DNA from: a virus
IMG/VR virus record: IMGVR_UViG_3300008267_001353
Coordinates: 1 to 27,279 of that record
DNA: 27,279 nt
Strand: one strand, 5' to 3'
Numbering within the stretch: position 1 is the first letter of the stretch; every line of letters begins with the position of its first letter. Both the position numbers and the translations under genes were made by a program. The notes below the pieces were generated by a model that searched no databases, was not told the origin of the DNA, and saw nothing but the letters and a program-made list of their open reading frames with translations. Positions 1-27,152 of the stretch are shown one piece after another.

Positions 1-84
1 TTCAATAGAACGAAGAGGAGCTCCAAGTACGTGACGTACTTTGGTGTAAAGTTCACTTCTTTGAGGTTCGGGAATGACTGCCAT
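1..84 (-). CDS. Neck protein, gp13-like (N-terminal 28 residues, cut by window edge)
   Basis: Reading the minus strand from the ATG at 84-82 gives an open frame to the window edge that begins MAVIPEPQRSELYTKVRHVL and continues GAPLRSIE. The pattern EL..V...LGAP...E resembles the N-terminus of T4 gp13 as I remember it ([20 protein letters not shown]), a neck protein that helps close the filled head and attach the tail. The nearby gp14-like and gp15-like genes support this, although they lie on the other strand. A TATTTATA element in the sense of this gene (plus-strand 99-106) sits 14 nt before the ATG, and there is no Shine-Dalgarno sequence. Only 28 residues are visible, so the family call is moderate; that this is a real gene start is more secure. 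Confidence 0.55.
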   Translation of the reverse strand, partial: MAVIPEPQRSELYTKVRHVLGAPLRSIE

Positions 85-121: not shown

Positions 122-829
122 TTATTTTTTTTCTTTTGTTTTTTGACTATATAATTCATTAACAAATTGCCAATTTACCACCTCCCAAAAGTTTTGAATA
201 TATTCATCTCTCTTGTTTTGATACTTTAAATAGTAAGCGTGTTCCCATAAATCAAGTCCAAGAATAGGAAATCCTCCTTGGTCAATAATATTCATAAGAG
301 GATTGTCTTGGTTTGGTGTTGTCATAATTTTTAAACTTCCGTTTTCTTTTGCCACAAGCCAAACCCATCCTGAACCAAATCTTGATTTTGCGGCTTGCTC
401 AAACTTTGTTCTAAAATTTCTATAAGTTCCAAATTGAGATTTAATTTTATCAAGTATTGGTCCTGATGGAACTTGTGGTTTTGGGGAGAGCATCTTCCAA
501 AAAAGAGCGTGATTAAACGCCCCACCGGCATTATTTCTTATGGTAGTGTTATACTTGGAAATTTGTTTAACAATTTCCTCAAGTTCAACATCCCCATAAT
601 CTTTTTTTCTAAGAGCGGAATTTAATTTTTTTACGTAAGTTTTGTAATGTCTTTTGTAATGAATCTTCATTGTCTCGGGGTCAATGAATCTTCTAATTGC
701 TGAATACGAATAAGGTAATCTATCTATACCAATAGTCTTCGCTTCATTTATGAAGAACTTCAGTTCGTTGGGTTCATCCCCATTAATCTGATTTATTAAA
801 CTCTCTGAAATTAGCTCAAGACGTTTCAT
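122..829 (-). CDS. Superoxide dismutase, Mn-type (Fe/Mn family)
   Basis: Converts superoxide to oxygen and hydrogen peroxide; no signal peptide, so presumably cytoplasmic. The Fe/Mn-SOD family is clear. Numbering from the ATG at 829 (235 aa), the four expected metal ligands are H57 (in MKIHYKRHYKTYV), H107 (NHALFW), D193 and H197 (GLDLWEHAYY). The active-site Tyr equivalent is Y65. Gly at the GG of RNNAGGAFNH together with Gln174 in NQDNPLM is the Mn-type pattern; Fe enzymes carry that Gln near the second His. There is an unusual N-terminal extension of about 35 residues before the normal start of the fold (RLPYSYSAI). An in-frame TTG lies directly before the ATG; ATG is preferred because TATTTATT sits 4 nt upstream of it. 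It lies 13 nt downstream of the helicase stop, so the two may be co-transcribed. Family certain; Mn preference is inferred from motifs. Confidence 0.95.
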   Translation of the reverse strand: MKRLELISESLINQINGDEPNELKFFINEAKTIGIDRLPYSYSAIRRFIDPETMKIHYKRHYKTYVKKLNSALRKKDYGDVELEEIVKQISKYNTTIRNNAGGAFNHALFWKMLSPKPQVPSGPILDKIKSQFGTYRNFRTKFEQAAKSRFGSGWVWLVAKENGSLKIMTTPNQDNPLMNIIDQGGFPILGLDLWEHAYYLKYQNKRDEYIQNFWEVVNWQFVNELYSQKTKEKK

Positions 830-842: not shown

Positions 843-2600
843 TTACCTATTACTGATTTCTTTTAAGATTTGTTCAACAATGTCGGACTCAGTTTCAGTA
901 ATATCACCCATAACCGTTCCGATGATTTGTTTCTTTCTTGACAGGATGTCATAGATTGCCCCTTCGATTGTGTTTTCAAATATCGGGTAGTAAACAAGAA
1001 CGTTGTTTTTTTGTCCGTATCTGTAAGACCTATCTTCAGCTTGAGCGTGGTCTGAAGGTAAAAATGAAAGGTCATTCATAATTACAGCCTCAGCAGCAGT
1101 TAATGTAATACCAACACCCGCGGCTTTAATGTTTCCACAGAAAACTTTAACTTTGTCGTTCTCTTGAAAATCATCCACTGCTTTTTGTCTTGCAGGTTTT
1201 GATGTTGACCCGTCCAAATAAACAGATTGTTTTTTAAAATGTTCGTGGATTTTTTGAAGTGGTTCAGTAAAGTTGGAAAATATGATTACTTTTTTTCCTT
1301 GTTCGATAATATTTTCGGCGACTTCGATTGTTGTTGCAATTTTTTCTTCGGCAATAACTTGACGAACTTTTGTAAGTTTTGAAAACTGAATTGTTAAAGA
1401 TTTTGACTCTTCTTTTTTATTTACATACCAATCATAATATTCACCCATAAGTTCTTCGTATAATCTTGAACTTAGTCTTTGGTAGATTGGGGTAATGATT
1501 TTATCAGGTAAATCTAATACTTCAGTTTTTAATCTTCGAATTACGTGTCTTGAGGTTCTGTCTCTGAGTTCCTCAAGATTTGTTGCCCCATTAACATTCC
1601 AAACTTTTCTCCTCCCAACCGAAAACTGATATCCTCCACAATATCTAATAGCATAAGCCATCCAATTCGCGGCCACAGGACTTTCAATAAGATTTAAAAG
1701 GTTGTAATAATTCATCGGTCGAGATGTCATAGGAGTTCCCGTTAACAACCAAAGTCTTTCAGAATTACTAACTAAATCATTTATAATTTTTGTTCTTTGA
1801 GCTTGTGGATTTGAAATATAATGAGCCTCGTCAATAACAACCAAATCAAAATTTTCTTTAAGTAAAACAGAATCTTTTGATTTTGGTTCGTGGAAGTTTT
1901 TCATTATATCATAATTTATAATATAATATTTGTGACCCTCCTCCCATTTTTTTCCTTCAACAATATAAACTGACTCATTGGTATAAAGAGCAATTTCTCT
2001 TTTCCAATTTATCTTTAAAGTTGCAGGACAAATAATTAAAATCTTTTTTGACCCACTTTCAATTGAAGAGATTACGGTCGAAGTTGTTTTCCCAAGACCC
2101 ATATCATCTGCAACAATGTACTTATCATTTTCCAAAAGTTTAATAATACATTCTTTTTGATGATTTAGAGGAGGGTGATGAGAATATTTTTCCCATTCCA
2201 CTTCAGCGGTTCTTGTCTTAGCTTTATGAATTGCCGTTTTAGGAATCCAAAAATCATGTAGAGTATCCCCACTAAAAATTTTTCCCCAAATATGGTATGA
2301 TTTGTCTTTTTCTACAAGAAGTTTTTCAACATAAATTTTATCAGGTTCTTTAATAAATGGGTTATCATCAACAAGTTTTTTAGCGAAATACGAATCAACC
2401 TCAACCCATTTTTTTGCAACCTTTGGTTCAGTTTGATTAAACCCTATTACATAATCACATTGAGCTCTTGTAGGGATAAATTTAGGATTTACGGCATGTT
2501 GTTGTTTTAACTTTAGGATATAGTTATTTGAACCCTGATAAGTCTCTAAAACTAATAGGGTCTTCTGTTCAATACTTTTAATATCGACTGAATCTTCCAC
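843..2600 (-). CDS. SNF2-family DNA-dependent ATPase / helicase
   Basis: A 585-aa superfamily 2 ATPase. Visible motifs: Walker A DDMGLGKT at residues 165-172, CPATLKINW as motif Ia around 191-199, DEAH at 257-260, LTGTP at 286-290, and the C-terminal RecA lobe with LDGSTSKPARQ, GVGITLTAA and motif VI QAEDRSYRYGQ at 520-530. The DEAH, LTGTP and QAxDRxxRxGQ set is typical of SNF2/SMARCAL1-like enzymes, which remodel or anneal DNA; a role in phage replication-fork or recombination repair, as for T4 UvsW, is inference. About 140 residues precede the helicase core and have no domain I recognise. The start is GTG at 2600; no in-frame ATG lies between it and the core. It is divergent from the gp14-like gene, 37 bp away, and is followed by SOD. 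Confidence 0.92.
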   Translation of the reverse strand: MEDSVDIKSIEQKTLLVLETYQGSNNYILKLKQQHAVNPKFIPTRAQCDYVIGFNQTEPKVAKKWVEVDSYFAKKLVDDNPFIKEPDKIYVEKLLVEKDKSYHIWGKIFSGDTLHDFWIPKTAIHKAKTRTAEVEWEKYSHHPPLNHQKECIIKLLENDKYIVADDMGLGKTTSTVISSIESGSKKILIICPATLKINWKREIALYTNESVYIVEGKKWEEGHKYYIINYDIMKNFHEPKSKDSVLLKENFDLVVIDEAHYISNPQAQRTKIINDLVSNSERLWLLTGTPMTSRPMNYYNLLNLIESPVAANWMAYAIRYCGGYQFSVGRRKVWNVNGATNLEELRDRTSRHVIRRLKTEVLDLPDKIITPIYQRLSSRLYEELMGEYYDWYVNKKEESKSLTIQFSKLTKVRQVIAEEKIATTIEVAENIIEQGKKVIIFSNFTEPLQKIHEHFKKQSVYLDGSTSKPARQKAVDDFQENDKVKVFCGNIKAAGVGITLTAAEAVIMNDLSFLPSDHAQAEDRSYRYGQKNNVLVYYPIFENTIEGAIYDILSRKKQIIGTVMGDITETESDIVEQILKEISNR

Positions 2601-4473: not shown

Positions 4474-7400
4474 ATGGCAGCATCTAACAAAGTTTTCGTT
4501 TCTCCTGGTGTTTATACCACAGAAACCGAACTCTCATTTGTTGCACAAAGTGTCGGTGTTACTACGCTTGGTCTCGCAGGTGAAACACTCAAAGGTCCAG
4601 CTTTTGAGCCGATTTTTGTGACTAATTATGAAGAGTTCCAAGCTTATTTCGGTACAACGTCACCGGAAAAATTTGTGAACACACAAATTCCTAAGTATGA
4701 ATTAGCATATATAGCTAAAGCTTACTTACAACAATCAAATCAACTTTTCGTATCAAGAGTACTTGGTCTTTCAGGTTATGATGCGGGACCGTCATGGTCT
4801 ATTACATCTATAGCAAATGTGGACTCCTCAACAATTATTGAAGGGGATGCAGCTGCTGCTACGGCAACTTTTAACTTTAGTGTTGATTCTGGAACTACGC
4901 CATATACAGTAACTTACACACTTGGAGCGTTTAGTGCGACTCCAGCCGGAACAGAATTCTACACACCTTATGTTAAGTATGATGGTAGTACATCTTCATA
5001 TGCTGATGATTTAAGTGCATTTATCTCAAGTATTGTAGATGGAGTAAGTAATACATCAGTACTTTCAATTTGGGGTTCATTACATAGTTCAGCAACTACA
5101 GTAATTGGTTCAAATATTGTAACTAATAATTTAGGAGTCGGAGGAAATGTATTCTCAGCAAATACAATGACTGACCCTATTAATGACCCATGGTATTATG
5201 CGTCATTTGTCCCAACTGGTGGTGGAACCTACTCTGGTTATTCATGGTATGCCGATGTTACAACTTACACAGCAGGTGCCACACCTACTGGCCAAGTAAC
5301 TTATCAAATTTATCCTTATGCCGGTACTGCTTACACTGATTATGATGATGTGGTAATGGTTACTTTACGCTCAAGAGGTATTTCAACTTACTCAACTTCG
5401 GCACACGGACCACAATATCAAGTAACTGCTAATACTGTAACATTAGATTTTACTGGTTCATATTCCGCAACTAGTGAAAATCCTTACGGTTCTTTTGGAA
5501 TAAGTGTCACTGACAAAGATTCAAATGCAACTACTTTTGAGGTTTCTTTAGATGAAACAAATGCCAATTTTATTAGTAAAGTTCTCGGTACAGGAAATTT
5601 CCAAAAGAATAGAGTTGATTTTCCAGTTTTTGTAGAAGAGCGTTTCCCTACTTTATTGTATCACGGTTACAATAAAGGATATATCAGAGGACTAAATAGT
5701 ACTCCTTTATATTTAGAAGAAGCTCAAGGTTTAGATTCAAATTCAATTGCTAACTATCTTGAAAGGTATCAAACTGCATATTCACCATGGGTTGTATCCG
5801 AACTTCGTGGTAATACAGTTTATCAATTGTTTAGATATATTACAATCTCAGATGGTAATTCTGCAAACAGAGAAGTTAAAGTATCGGTCGCTAATATGTC
5901 ATTTGACCTTATGACTTTTGACGTTTTAGTTAGAGATTACTTTGACACAGACTTAAATCCTGTTGTATTAGAAAAATACACAAGCTGTTCTATGGACCCA
6001 TCATTAAACAATTATGTGGCTAAGAAGATTGGTACTGCTGACGGTGTTTATGCGATTAATTCTAAGTATATTATGCTTGAAATCAATGAAGATGCCCCAT
6101 CTGACGCACTTCCTGCAGGTTTTGAAGGTTACTTAATTAGAACTTATAATGGTGTTAATCCTCCTTTCCCAATCTACAAAACAAAATATAATGCACCTGG
6201 TGATGTTTTATACAACCCACCTTTTGGTACTATTTTGGGTGTAGATAATGAGGTAATTAGTAGTGGTGATAATGCTAGAAGAAGTTACTTAGGTTTTAGT
6301 ACAACTGTTGGTTGGGACGTAAACTTCTTTGATTACAAAGGTAAACAAAATCCATCAGGATTTACTTGTTACGAACAGACTTACGCTAATTGGAGCCATT
6401 TAACTAAAGGTTTCCACATGGATAGTGGAGCAACCGCAGTAACAATTTCGTCTATTTATTCTACTTCAGGTACTCAAGCTTTCGATTGTGGTGTTGGTCA
6501 GTTTAACACTGAACCTATTGACCCAAATGAAACTTATTACAGAACTTATTCTCGTAAGTTTACTGTTTTACCTTATGGTGGTTTTGATGGTTGGGACATT
6601 TACAGAGAGTACAGAACAAATGGTGATGAGTATGTATTAGGTAAGGCTGGTTATTTGTATGGTGGTAGAGCAGGATGTACTCCTTATACAAACGCAACTG
6701 GTTGGGGAGCGTTTAGACAGATTACTGTAGAAGATAACACAGCTGACTACGCTAATACTGACTACTACGCTTACTTACTTGGTATTGAGTCATTCAATAA
6801 TCCTGGTATTATTAATATTAACGTGTTTGCAACACCTGGTATTGACTATGTAAATAACTATAAGTTGGTTAGAGCGGCAATTGACATGGTTGAAATAGAT
6901 AGAGCGGACTCTATTTATGTTACGACAACCCCTGACTTTGATTTGTTACAACCATCAGCTTCTATGGATAACTTTGTATATCCACAAGATGCGGTAGTTG
7001 ATTTAGAATCAACTAATATTGATTCTAATTACACTGTAACTTACTATCCATGGGTATTGACTCGTGACAGTGTTTACAATACACAAATTTACATTCCAGC
7101 AACCGCTGAAGTATGTAGAAACTTGGCATTAACCGACAACATTGCTTTCCCATGGTTTGCAACTGCAGGTTACACAAGAGGTATTGTTAACTCAGTAAGG
7201 GCAAGACGTAGACTTACTCAACTTGATAGAGACACTCTTTACCAAGGAAGACTTAACCCAATTGCAACTTTCAATGATGTTGGTACTGTAATTTGGGGTA
7301 ATAAGACTCTTCAGTTAAGAGAAAGTCCTCTTGATAGAATTAACGTTAGAAGATTGTTGTTACAAGCTCGTAAGCTTATTTCAGCAGTGGCAATCAGATT

Positions 7401-7644
7401 GCTCTTCGAACAAAATGACGCAGTTGTAAGACAACAGTTCTTGGATTCTGTAAACCCAATCTTGGATGCAATCCGTAGAGACAGAGGTATTACTGACTTC
7501 CGTGTAACTGTATCAAACAATCCTGAGGAGTTCGATTCTAACCAAATGTCAGGACGTATATTCTTGAAGCCAACTAAGGCTCTTGAATTTATCGACATTG
7601 AGTTCATTATCACTCCACAAGGAGCAAGTTTCGAAAACATATAA
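4474..7644 (+). CDS. Tail sheath protein (gp18-like)
   Basis: The contractile sheath subunit around the tail tube. The N-terminus FVSPGVYTTETELSFVAQSV followed by GVTTLGLAGETLKGPAFEPI is a typical sheath start, and residues about 890-1056 hold the conserved polymerisation domain: GIVNSVRARRRLTQLDRDTL, GVRxxRLLLQARKLISAVAI-like core, QFLDSVNPILDAIRRDRGIT and the end FIDIEFIITPQGASFENI. At 1056 aa it is far longer than T4 gp18 (659 aa). The extra length lies in residues roughly 110-880, rich in Thr, Ser, Tyr and Gly, so decorated surface domains are likely. It is probably transcribed on its own: an ACACTATTTAT element upstream and a strong hairpin terminator 20 nt downstream. The family is secure from both ends; the middle domains are not identified. 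Confidence 0.95.
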   Translation: MAASNKVFVSPGVYTTETELSFVAQSVGVTTLGLAGETLKGPAFEPIFVTNYEEFQAYFGTTSPEKFVNTQIPKYELAYIAKAYLQQSNQLFVSRVLGLSGYDAGPSWSITSIANVDSSTIIEGDAAAATATFNFSVDSGTTPYTVTYTLGAFSATPAGTEFYTPYVKYDGSTSSYADDLSAFISSIVDGVSNTSVLSIWGSLHSSATTVIGSNIVTNNLGVGGNVFSANTMTDPINDPWYYASFVPTGGGTYSGYSWYADVTTYTAGATPTGQVTYQIYPYAGTAYTDYDDVVMVTLRSRGISTYSTSAHGPQYQVTANTVTLDFTGSYSATSENPYGSFGISVTDKDSNATTFEVSLDETNANFISKVLGTGNFQKNRVDFPVFVEERFPTLLYHGYNKGYIRGLNSTPLYLEEAQGLDSNSIANYLERYQTAYSPWVVSELRGNTVYQLFRYITISDGNSANREVKVSVANMSFDLMTFDVLVRDYFDTDLNPVVLEKYTSCSMDPSLNNYVAKKIGTADGVYAINSKYIMLEINEDAPSDALPAGFEGYLIRTYNGVNPPFPIYKTKYNAPGDVLYNPPFGTILGVDNEVISSGDNARRSYLGFSTTVGWDVNFFDYKGKQNPSGFTCYEQTYANWSHLTKGFHMDSGATAVTISSIYSTSGTQAFDCGVGQFNTEPIDPNETYYRTYSRKFTVLPYGGFDGWDIYREYRTNGDEYVLGKAGYLYGGRAGCTPYTNATGWGAFRQITVEDNTADYANTDYYAYLLGIESFNNPGIININVFATPGIDYVNNYKLVRAAIDMVEIDRADSIYVTTTPDFDLLQPSASMDNFVYPQDAVVDLESTNIDSNYTVTYYPWVLTRDSVYNTQIYIPATAEVCRNLALTDNIAFPWFATAGYTRGIVNSVRARRRLTQLDRDTLYQGRLNPIATFNDVGTVIWGNKTLQLRESPLDRINVRRLLLQARKLISAVAIRLLFEQNDAVVRQQFLDSVNPILDAIRRDRGITDFRVTVSNNPEEFDSNQMSGRIFLKPTKALEFIDIEFIITPQGASFENI

Positions 7645-7711: not shown

Positions 7712-8527
7712 ATGAAATTATTTTTAGTTGAGGGATTCAAAGATGAGTTGACCCCTGATATGAAGTATTATGCATTTGACTGGGACGACAACTTAATGTT
7801 CATGCCTACTCAGATTATTTTAAAAGATTCTGATGGTAAAGAAGTGGGTATGGGAACAGAAGATTTTGCTGAACATAGAATGAAAATAGGTAAAGAAGAT
7901 TTCGAATATAAAGGAAAAACTATAGTTGGGTTTGCAGAAAATCCATTTAGAAATTTTTCAGAGCAAGGAAATAAAAAGTTTATAATTGATTCTCTTTTAG
8001 CTAAAACAGGTCCGGCATGGGATGATTTTGTGGAATGTATAAATGGAGGGTCTATTTTCTCTATTATAACAGCAAGAGGACACTCACCTGAAACAATTAA
8101 ACAGGCAATCGAAAATCTTATAGAAGTTGGTTATAAAGGTCTATCGAAGAAAGAATTAGTATATAATTTAAAGAAATATAGGGAACTTGCCGGAGAAGAT
8201 GAATTAAGTGACTCCGAACTTGTGGAAAGTTATTTAAATATGAACAAGTATTATCCTGTTACTTATGGTAGTGGGTCAGCACAAAGTCCCGAACAAGGAA
8301 AAGTGGATGCGATAAAAGAGTTTTCAAGGTATGTAATTAATTTATCCAAAAAAATAGGGCAGACCCCTTACCTTAAAAATGATGTATCAAATAAATTTAT
8401 TCCTACTATTGGTTTTTCTGACGATGATTTAAGAAATTTAGAAAAGATGAAAAGTGCATTAAAAGATGACCCAGAAAATATTGTTCAAATGTATTCAACA
8501 CACGGAGGTATAAAAAAGAAATATTAA
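7712..8527 (+). CDS. HAD-superfamily hydrolase (probable phosphatase)
   Basis: A 271-aa protein with the four HAD motifs in order: D23-W-D25-D26 (motif I, FDWDDNLMF), T120 in IITARG (motif II), K197 in the QGKVDAIKEF region (candidate motif III Lys), and D237-D238-D239 in GFSDDDLRN (motif IV). HAD enzymes use the first Asp as nucleophile for phosphoryl transfer, and the second Asp as acid/base. The substrate cannot be told; nucleotide or polynucleotide 3'-phosphatase roles are known for phage HAD proteins. The frame is open 43 codons further upstream into the sheath gene, but the ATG at 7712 is chosen because it lies after the terminator and 3 nt behind a TATTTATA element. Its place between sheath and tube genes is odd, since these are adjacent in T4. 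Confidence 0.8.
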   Translation: MKLFLVEGFKDELTPDMKYYAFDWDDNLMFMPTQIILKDSDGKEVGMGTEDFAEHRMKIGKEDFEYKGKTIVGFAENPFRNFSEQGNKKFIIDSLLAKTGPAWDDFVECINGGSIFSIITARGHSPETIKQAIENLIEVGYKGLSKKELVYNLKKYRELAGEDELSDSELVESYLNMNKYYPVTYGSGSAQSPEQGKVDAIKEFSRYVINLSKKIGQTPYLKNDVSNKFIPTIGFSDDDLRNLEKMKSALKDDPENIVQMYSTHGGIKKKY

Positions 8528-26498: not shown

Positions 26499-27152
26499 AT
26501 GAATATTTCTGAAACTATCTTAGAAGAACTTAGAAGATATAATAAAATTAATAATTATATATCTGAACAAGAAGTGGGTTTACCACCGGCTGAAGACCCA
26601 GCGGCTGGAGCTCCACCGGCACCAGAAGTGGCACCACCGGCAGAACCGGGGGCAACTCCTACACCTGAGGCTCCGGCAACAACAGAACCTACACCTGTTG
26701 ATGTTGAAAATGACCCGGATGTTGAAAAAATTGGAGAGGAGGAAGATACTACAGAAGAACTTGAAATTACAGACCTTGTAAAATCACAACAAAACATTGA
26801 AACAAAACAGGAGGAGTATTTTAACAATTTATTTGCACAACTTACAAATTTAGAACAGAAACTATCTGATATGGACCAAGTTATGAATAAACTTAATGAC
26901 TTGGAATCAAAAATAGAAAAGTATAGACCAAAGACTCCACAAGAAAAACTTGAACTCAGAAGTTTAGATTCAGGTCCTTATAATCAAAAACTTACCGATT
27001 TTTTTACTGATAAACAACAGGATATTGAAAAATCAGGAAAAAATGAATATGTTTTAACAACTGATGAAGTTGAAGACTATGCACCATCAGAAATTAAAAC
27101 AACTTTTAATGATTATGGTGAACCTGAAGATTTTAGACAACTCAAATACTAA
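26499..27152 (+). CDS. Pro/Ala-rich and coiled-coil protein (217 aa), function unknown
   Basis: Three parts are visible. Residues 1-25 form a helix-like start (MNISETILEELRRYNKINNY). Residues about 27-70 are a linker of Pro, Ala and Glu (PPAEDPAAGAPPAPEVAPPA), unusually GC-rich at DNA level for this genome. From about 90 on there is an acidic helix and a clear coiled-coil region (LFAQLTNLEQKLSDMDQVMN, KLNDLESKIEKY), then a tail ending GEPEDFRQLKY. Scaffold, prohead core or virion accessory proteins can have this layout; that is inference. I-x-E sites near the N-terminus (ISE, ILE, ISE at residues 3-23) match the T4-type head protease consensus (I/L)xE, but such short motifs are common. Probably co-transcribed with the 74-aa gene. 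Confidence 0.75.
   Translation: MNISETILEELRRYNKINNYISEQEVGLPPAEDPAAGAPPAPEVAPPAEPGATPTPEAPATTEPTPVDVENDPDVEKIGEEEDTTEELEITDLVKSQQNIETKQEEYFNNLFAQLTNLEQKLSDMDQVMNKLNDLESKIEKYRPKTPQEKLELRSLDSGPYNQKLTDFFTDKQQDIEKSGKNEYVLTTDEVEDYAPSEIKTTFNDYGEPEDFRQLKY

Follow-up and report, generated by a model that had tools for sequence, protein, structure and literature searches.

A leader-bearing superoxide dismutase as a candidate internal head protein in an uncultured clade of T4-like phages

The viral DNA analyzed here (the window; a complete IMG/VR virus record of 27,279 bases that is itself a fragment) encodes a superoxide dismutase (SOD) that, in our reading, is a Bacteroidota-derived, Mn-preferring enzyme turned internal head protein, which would be targeted by a leader, cut at a gp21-type site, packaged and most likely ejected with the genome. 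We give this reading a probability of roughly two in three. The enzyme family, the intact active site, selection on the gene, the pattern of leader and site, the protease gene of relatives and the polyprotein architecture are observed. The gene itself is not new, an uncultured relative of 501 residues being already public under the simple name superoxide dismutase, but the head-cargo reading is, and a non-exhaustive literature search that covered few subscription journals returned no report of an SOD among the internal head proteins of a phage. The features of the window are collected in Table 1.

Table 1. Positions of the SOD gene, its parts and other genes in the window; a slash marks a predicted cut.
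Feature	Position	Strand	Remarks
SOD ORF	122..829	minus	235 aa; ATG 829, stop 122-124; TTG 832 is one codon further out
Leader/propeptide MKRLELISESLINQINGDEPNELKFFINE, residues 1-29	743..829	minus	predicted prohead-protease cut after E29 (FINE/A)
Predicted mature SOD (AKTIGIDRLPY...)	125..742	minus	length of an ordinary bacterial SOD
Metal ligand H57	659..661	minus	invariant
Metal ligand H107	509..511	minus	invariant
Gln174, C-terminal, water-coordinating (SodFM1 / Mn type)	308..310	minus	invariant; rule from PMC10172142
Metal ligand D193	251..253	minus	invariant; Gly191 at D-2, the usual residue of Mn-preferring enzymes
Metal ligand H197	239..241	minus	invariant
SNF2/UvsW-like helicase	843..2600	minus	directly upstream of SOD; conserved neighbour
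Start of next gene, MAVIPEPQRSELYTKVRHVLGAPLRSIE..., cut by window end	1..84	minus	orthologue of head-tail adaptor (PHROG 211, Ad2)
Tail sheath	4474-7644	plus	1056 aa; sheath profiles match the C-terminal fifth only; large insertion/extra domains
HAD-like protein	7712..8527	plus	leader MKLFLVE/G; IVE/G, ILE/G in orthologues; possible second head-packaged protein
Pro/Ala-rich protein	26499..27152	plus	leader MNISETILEELRRYNKINNYISE/Q (..YISE/Q); site kept in G002 (140221) and G003 (238169)

As an enzyme, the protein is a typical representative of a known family. The window SOD matches Sod_Fe_N (E=2e-22) and Sod_Fe_C (E=3e-41), with PF00081 and PF02777 both above their curated cut-offs, contains the three His and one Asp ligands, and has S. 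aureus SodA/SodM as its closest solved relative (E=3e-64). Residues H57, Y65, H107, Q174, D193 and H197 are unchanged across 41 phage SOD homologues. A C-terminal Gln together with a Gly at the second position ahead of the Asp ligand marks the Mn-preferring SodFM1 group (PMC10172142), and both Q174 and G191 are invariant in the phage homologues; by these marks the predicted metal preference is that of a Mn-preferring SodFM1-type enzyme. Comparison with relatives gave dN/dS values of 0.055-0.10, synonymous change far exceeding amino-acid change, which indicates that the gene is under purifying selection. An earlier note on this DNA had described a Mn-type SOD with intact ligands, which the two Pfam domains, the invariant ligands, Q174 and G191 confirm, and had considered it probably active, which the invariant active site and the dN/dS range support at the level of sequence. 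The gene lies where that note had placed it, at 122-829, and on the minus strand, which had not been given.

The nearest cellular SODs, at about 50% identity, are mostly from Bacteroidota. The database search and tree proposed by the earlier note as a check placed all 24 of 24 phage SOD sequences in one clade (100/100) nested among Bacteroidota SODs, and this tree is most simply explained by one acquisition event with a Bacteroidota host as the probable donor. In its nesting the phage SOD has the mark of an auxiliary metabolic gene, that is, a cellular metabolic gene acquired by a phage, so that this part of the earlier note stands, although the plain label misses the likely role as internal head cargo. 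The SodFM1 enzymes of Bacteroidota (Chitinophagaceae and others) share the fold, the four ligands, the C-terminal Gln and the Gly at D-2, but lack the capsid-type leader, and several bacterial copies bear Sec or Tat signals. Among phage isolates, Fe/Mn SODs were found in PA5oct-like phages of Pseudomonas and in the Vibrio jumbo phage 2.275.O, which are likewise tailed jumbo phages; these SODs fall elsewhere in the tree on separate and very long branches, have only 25-30% identity and other neighbours, and show no [LI]xE-ended leader.

SOD sits between the helicase and head-tail adaptor genes, with all three on one strand, and beyond the divergent point from the SOD-adaptor block lie neck, sheath, tube and baseplate genes. 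The same gene order is found in two larger contigs, G002 (294 kb) and G003 (322 kb). Across 80 loci fetched by the adaptor protein alone, without SOD as a query, SOD is on the adaptor's strand in 78 and directly upstream in 77, these being gene calls from a simple script on fragmentary contigs; in both loci that lack SOD the adaptor gene is near a contig end. SOD relatives are encoded on at least 600 viral contigs of up to 322 kb. Bacterial contamination or a mis-joined fragment, the possibility that the earlier note had named as one that would refute its reading, is ruled out by this synteny (78/80), by the recurrence and by the IMG/VR virus record. As for SOD being rarely reported in tailed phages, the same note is right about isolates, whereas in this uncultured T4-like clade SOD looks core. 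Phage-family profiles searched against the window returned no SOD family. The carrier phages probably infect freshwater Bacteroidota. No cultured member of the clade was found in the collections searched, and the cultured phages nearest by capsid protein, Rhodothermus RM378, Flavobacterium immuto and Microcystis Mel-JY01, are all distant.

The phage SODs begin with a leader, mostly of 27-30 residues, which in the model of the window SOD precedes the SOD fold (residues 19-31, pLDDT <50). Its end follows the pattern [FL][IL]xE/[MA]K, with the Glu kept in 65 of 65 distinct leaders; a short N-terminal peptide ending in (L/I)-x-E at a domain boundary, as in T4-type propeptides, is thus present throughout. 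The rest of the leader varies (mean column entropy 2.1 bits, versus 0.7 in the SOD domain), and bacterial SODs lack such a leader, having instead a start near the domain or a signal peptide. The motif [LI]xE is short and common by chance. Sites were scored with a P4-P1 profile trained on non-SOD proteins only. This revealed that E29 and E9 are the two highest-scoring sites in the window SOD, the latter (LISE/S, in MKRLELISE/S) being a possible earlier cut, and that for 36 of 41 SODs the top match lies inside the leader (16% expected). The conserved Glu is among the three best sites in 36 of the 41, and in three it is a weak site of rank 9-12; a six-position profile ranked this Glu poorly because Q/E is favoured after the cut in the other leaders. 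P1' is Met in 53 of the 65 relatives, so translation could begin there. A mis-called start was nevertheless rejected: the window SOD and 11 others have Ala at P1', pattern and length are conserved, and in some fusions the leader follows another domain.

Sec- or Tat-type signal peptides are present in several of the Bacteroidota SODs closest to the phage enzyme, which would suit a leader that acts as a secretion signal for a periplasmic or surface enzyme. The phage leader, however, is charged and amphipathic, and none of 51 phage leaders has a hydrophobic core: the highest 11-residue Kyte-Doolittle mean was 1.29 and 0/51 exceeded 1.8, a value exceeded by 15 of 80 bacterial SODs in the comparison. 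Failing the hydropathy expected of a hydrophobic h-region, a secreted SOD with a signal peptide was rejected, and we regard secretion as highly improbable.

In T4, gp23 loses 65 residues and gp24 loses 10 to gp21, which also trims the N-terminal peptides of internal proteins (PMC9958956), and a T4 capsid-targeting sequence can direct foreign proteins into the head (PMC5694885, PMC9958956). The T4 record gives the sites SFLTE/A at residue 65 of gp23 and MAKINELLRE/S at residue 10 of gp24. In the clade studied here, the propeptide of the major capsid protein ends in [FHY]LINE/A in 79 of 79 contigs (one has LINE/S), and the window SOD counterpart is FFINE/A. Four relative contigs, all of those examined in which the capsid gene is present, contain both the gp21 protease (PF03420) and the gp23 capsid protein (PF07068), which therefore assigns them to a T4-like lineage. 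Capsid site and gp21-family protease thus occur together in relatives, the window fragment covering neither gene. The phage SODs share with the internal head proteins and propeptides of T4 (IPI-III and Alt; gp23 and gp24) a short propeptide ending in [LI]xE, a gp21-family protease and a gp23-type capsid, but their leader is longer (27-30 versus 10-20 aa) and often has two sites, and the resemblance (compare gp24) is one of pattern in a stretch too short for a homology test. Unlike in T4, the putative cargo is a redox enzyme, and it occurs in polyprotein fusions.

In many relatives the open reading frame runs on past SOD, which is often the first domain, while the window SOD is without extension. 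The commonest extension is a domain of 270-282 residues, joined by a linker of low model confidence (pLDDT <50; for example INESTVMKKLITE/GKSE). Of 51 distinct linkers between SOD and this domain, 46 contain the motif [LIV][LIV]xE, compared with 5.4 ± 2.1 in shuffles, although the sequences are related and the count overstates their independence. The extension itself was predicted at pLDDT 87 with a PD-(D/E)XK fold most like that of the archaeal Holliday junction resolvase Hjc (VIA Z 9.0, rmsd 3.3 Å, 102 aligned residues; the Foldseek E-value was only 0.02). Its invariant residues E169, D202, Q215 and K217 correspond to the E, D and QxK of Hjc, but it has about 140 additional N-terminal helical residues, no Pfam match above cut-off and no sequence match among PDB structures. 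By its predicted fold it is most like a Holliday-resolvase-type nuclease domain. In other relatives the leader is preceded by an HEWxH zinc-peptidase-like domain; in L056 the junction is IFE/G, and a three-part fusion there links zinc-peptidase-like, SOD and nuclease-like domains (L056:9590-11731). Stand-alone versions of the zinc-peptidase-like domain occur in G002, near the capsid gene, and in G003. L058 and L362 have in common SOD, the nuclease-like domain and a further domain (L362:672-3419), which in L362 follows another leader-like linker, LTESKKIVITKKQLQRITE/A.

Leader-type starts are also found on other proteins of these genomes. Occurrences of [LI].E[AGSM] in the first 50 residues numbered 55 versus 31 ± 5, 61 versus 32 ± 5 and 37 versus 17.5 ± 4 in the three larger relative contigs and 13 versus 8.6 ± 2.8 in the smallest of the four, and scrambled motifs were mostly not over-represented there. 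A start of the form M-x(1-8)-[LI][TSN]E is present in 95 of 895 genes (~10%), versus 71 of 3601 internal Met positions (p=3e-27). In Flavobacterium phage immuto, the nearest cultured relative checked, the enrichment is not evident (6/174 versus 12/591), and the 150 kb read of that phage contains no SOD motif. Leader families such as MKKIIRLTESDLTRIVKRVINE/Q and MKYLITE/S, which the SOD leader (MKxLNLLSES...) resembles, front unrelated proteins that include polyphosphate kinase 2, an M23 peptidase and peptidoglycan-binding proteins. We consider it an even bet that the heads are loaded with a set of enzymes (SOD, the resolvase-like nuclease, polyphosphate kinase, zinc and M23 peptidases and others) behind interchangeable leaders, some as polyproteins cut in the capsid, with SOD as the antioxidant part of a kit injected from time zero. 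In the window, the HAD-like gene lies between the tail sheath and tube genes and has no Pfam match at 0.1. Elsewhere, the polyphosphate kinase 2 at L113:6806-7903 in G002 (E=2e-72) stands behind the leader MRKLLTEVEKIKEIMGVSLNE/S and is possibly packaged; tandem paralogues of about 100 aa starting MK[YFL]L/IITES occur at G002:C1:1186-3200, near a contig end, and G003:C1:31641-34179; and a DUF5856 protein (L123:11852-12223 in G002; E=2e-19), by eye like Dps/ferritin helices, directly precedes a leader-bearing DHH protein.

We infer packaging, cleavage, ejection and a benefit of the phage SOD as follows. The amphipathic leader would be a capsid-targeting sequence that carries SOD into the scaffold core, a gp21-type prohead protease would cut after FINE (residue 29) to leave an ordinary SOD packaged with the DNA, and the same protease would separate the domains of the nuclease and peptidase fusions. 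By T4 practice for such proteins, SOD would most likely be ejected with the genome and could remove superoxide near the entering DNA during the first minutes, ahead of phage gene expression, the superoxide arising from entry or from stressed, light-exposed hosts; it may also protect DNA packaged in the capsid. No phage catalase was found, an AhpC-like match being below cut-off, and hydrogen peroxide removal would therefore rely on the host. The suggestion of the earlier note that the extra N-terminus targets or anchors the protein in the virion is well supported as to targeting, by what would be a cleavable capsid-targeting propeptide, but not as to an anchor.

Were SOD instead held by its leader in the neck, tail or outer head, its place next to the head-tail adaptor gene would be expected, but an anchor should not bear a capsid-protease site at the domain boundary, and the adjoining helicase means that the locus is not purely structural; we think this quite improbable. 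It is also unlikely, if less so, that SOD is an ordinary auxiliary metabolic gene whose product is made late and works in the cytoplasm of the infected cell, the leader being incidental or an aid to folding or oligomerisation. An intact enzyme under selection fits such a role, as do the SODs of the PA5oct-like and Vibrio phages, which have no such [LI]xE-ended leader and lie among metabolic or replication genes; left unexplained are the invariant [FL][IL]xE between leader and domain, the second site in the fusions and the same leader type on unrelated proteins.

There is a precedent for a virus-encoded SOD carried in the particle: the Cu/Zn SOD of chlorovirus PBCV-1 (A245R) is packaged in the virion and has been connected with lower superoxide levels early in infection (PMC7019647). 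That enzyme belongs to an unrelated family and to an algal virus, with no prohead-protease processing described there. Judged by sequence, the phage SOD would stand apart among T4-type head cargo by its delivery signal, its polyprotein forms and its place as a core gene of a large uncultured clade. If internal packaging is correct, the particles of an entire uncultured phage clade contain an antioxidant enzyme and deliver it before phage gene expression, which would connect the very first step of infection in surface waters with oxidative stress and provide a phage counterpart to the SOD of chlorovirus virions. With its calibration on the capsid protein of the phages themselves, the sequence rule would further allow head cargo to be read off among unknown proteins, a prediction that can be tested directly on dozens of genes without known function. 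As a separate observation, many 'phage' SOD matches in INPHARED look bacterial and inflate phage-SOD counts (OR850395, OR845917, AFYI01000005, MW462191 and others); MW462191 has host-like genes around SOD, and bacterial contig records are among the entries.
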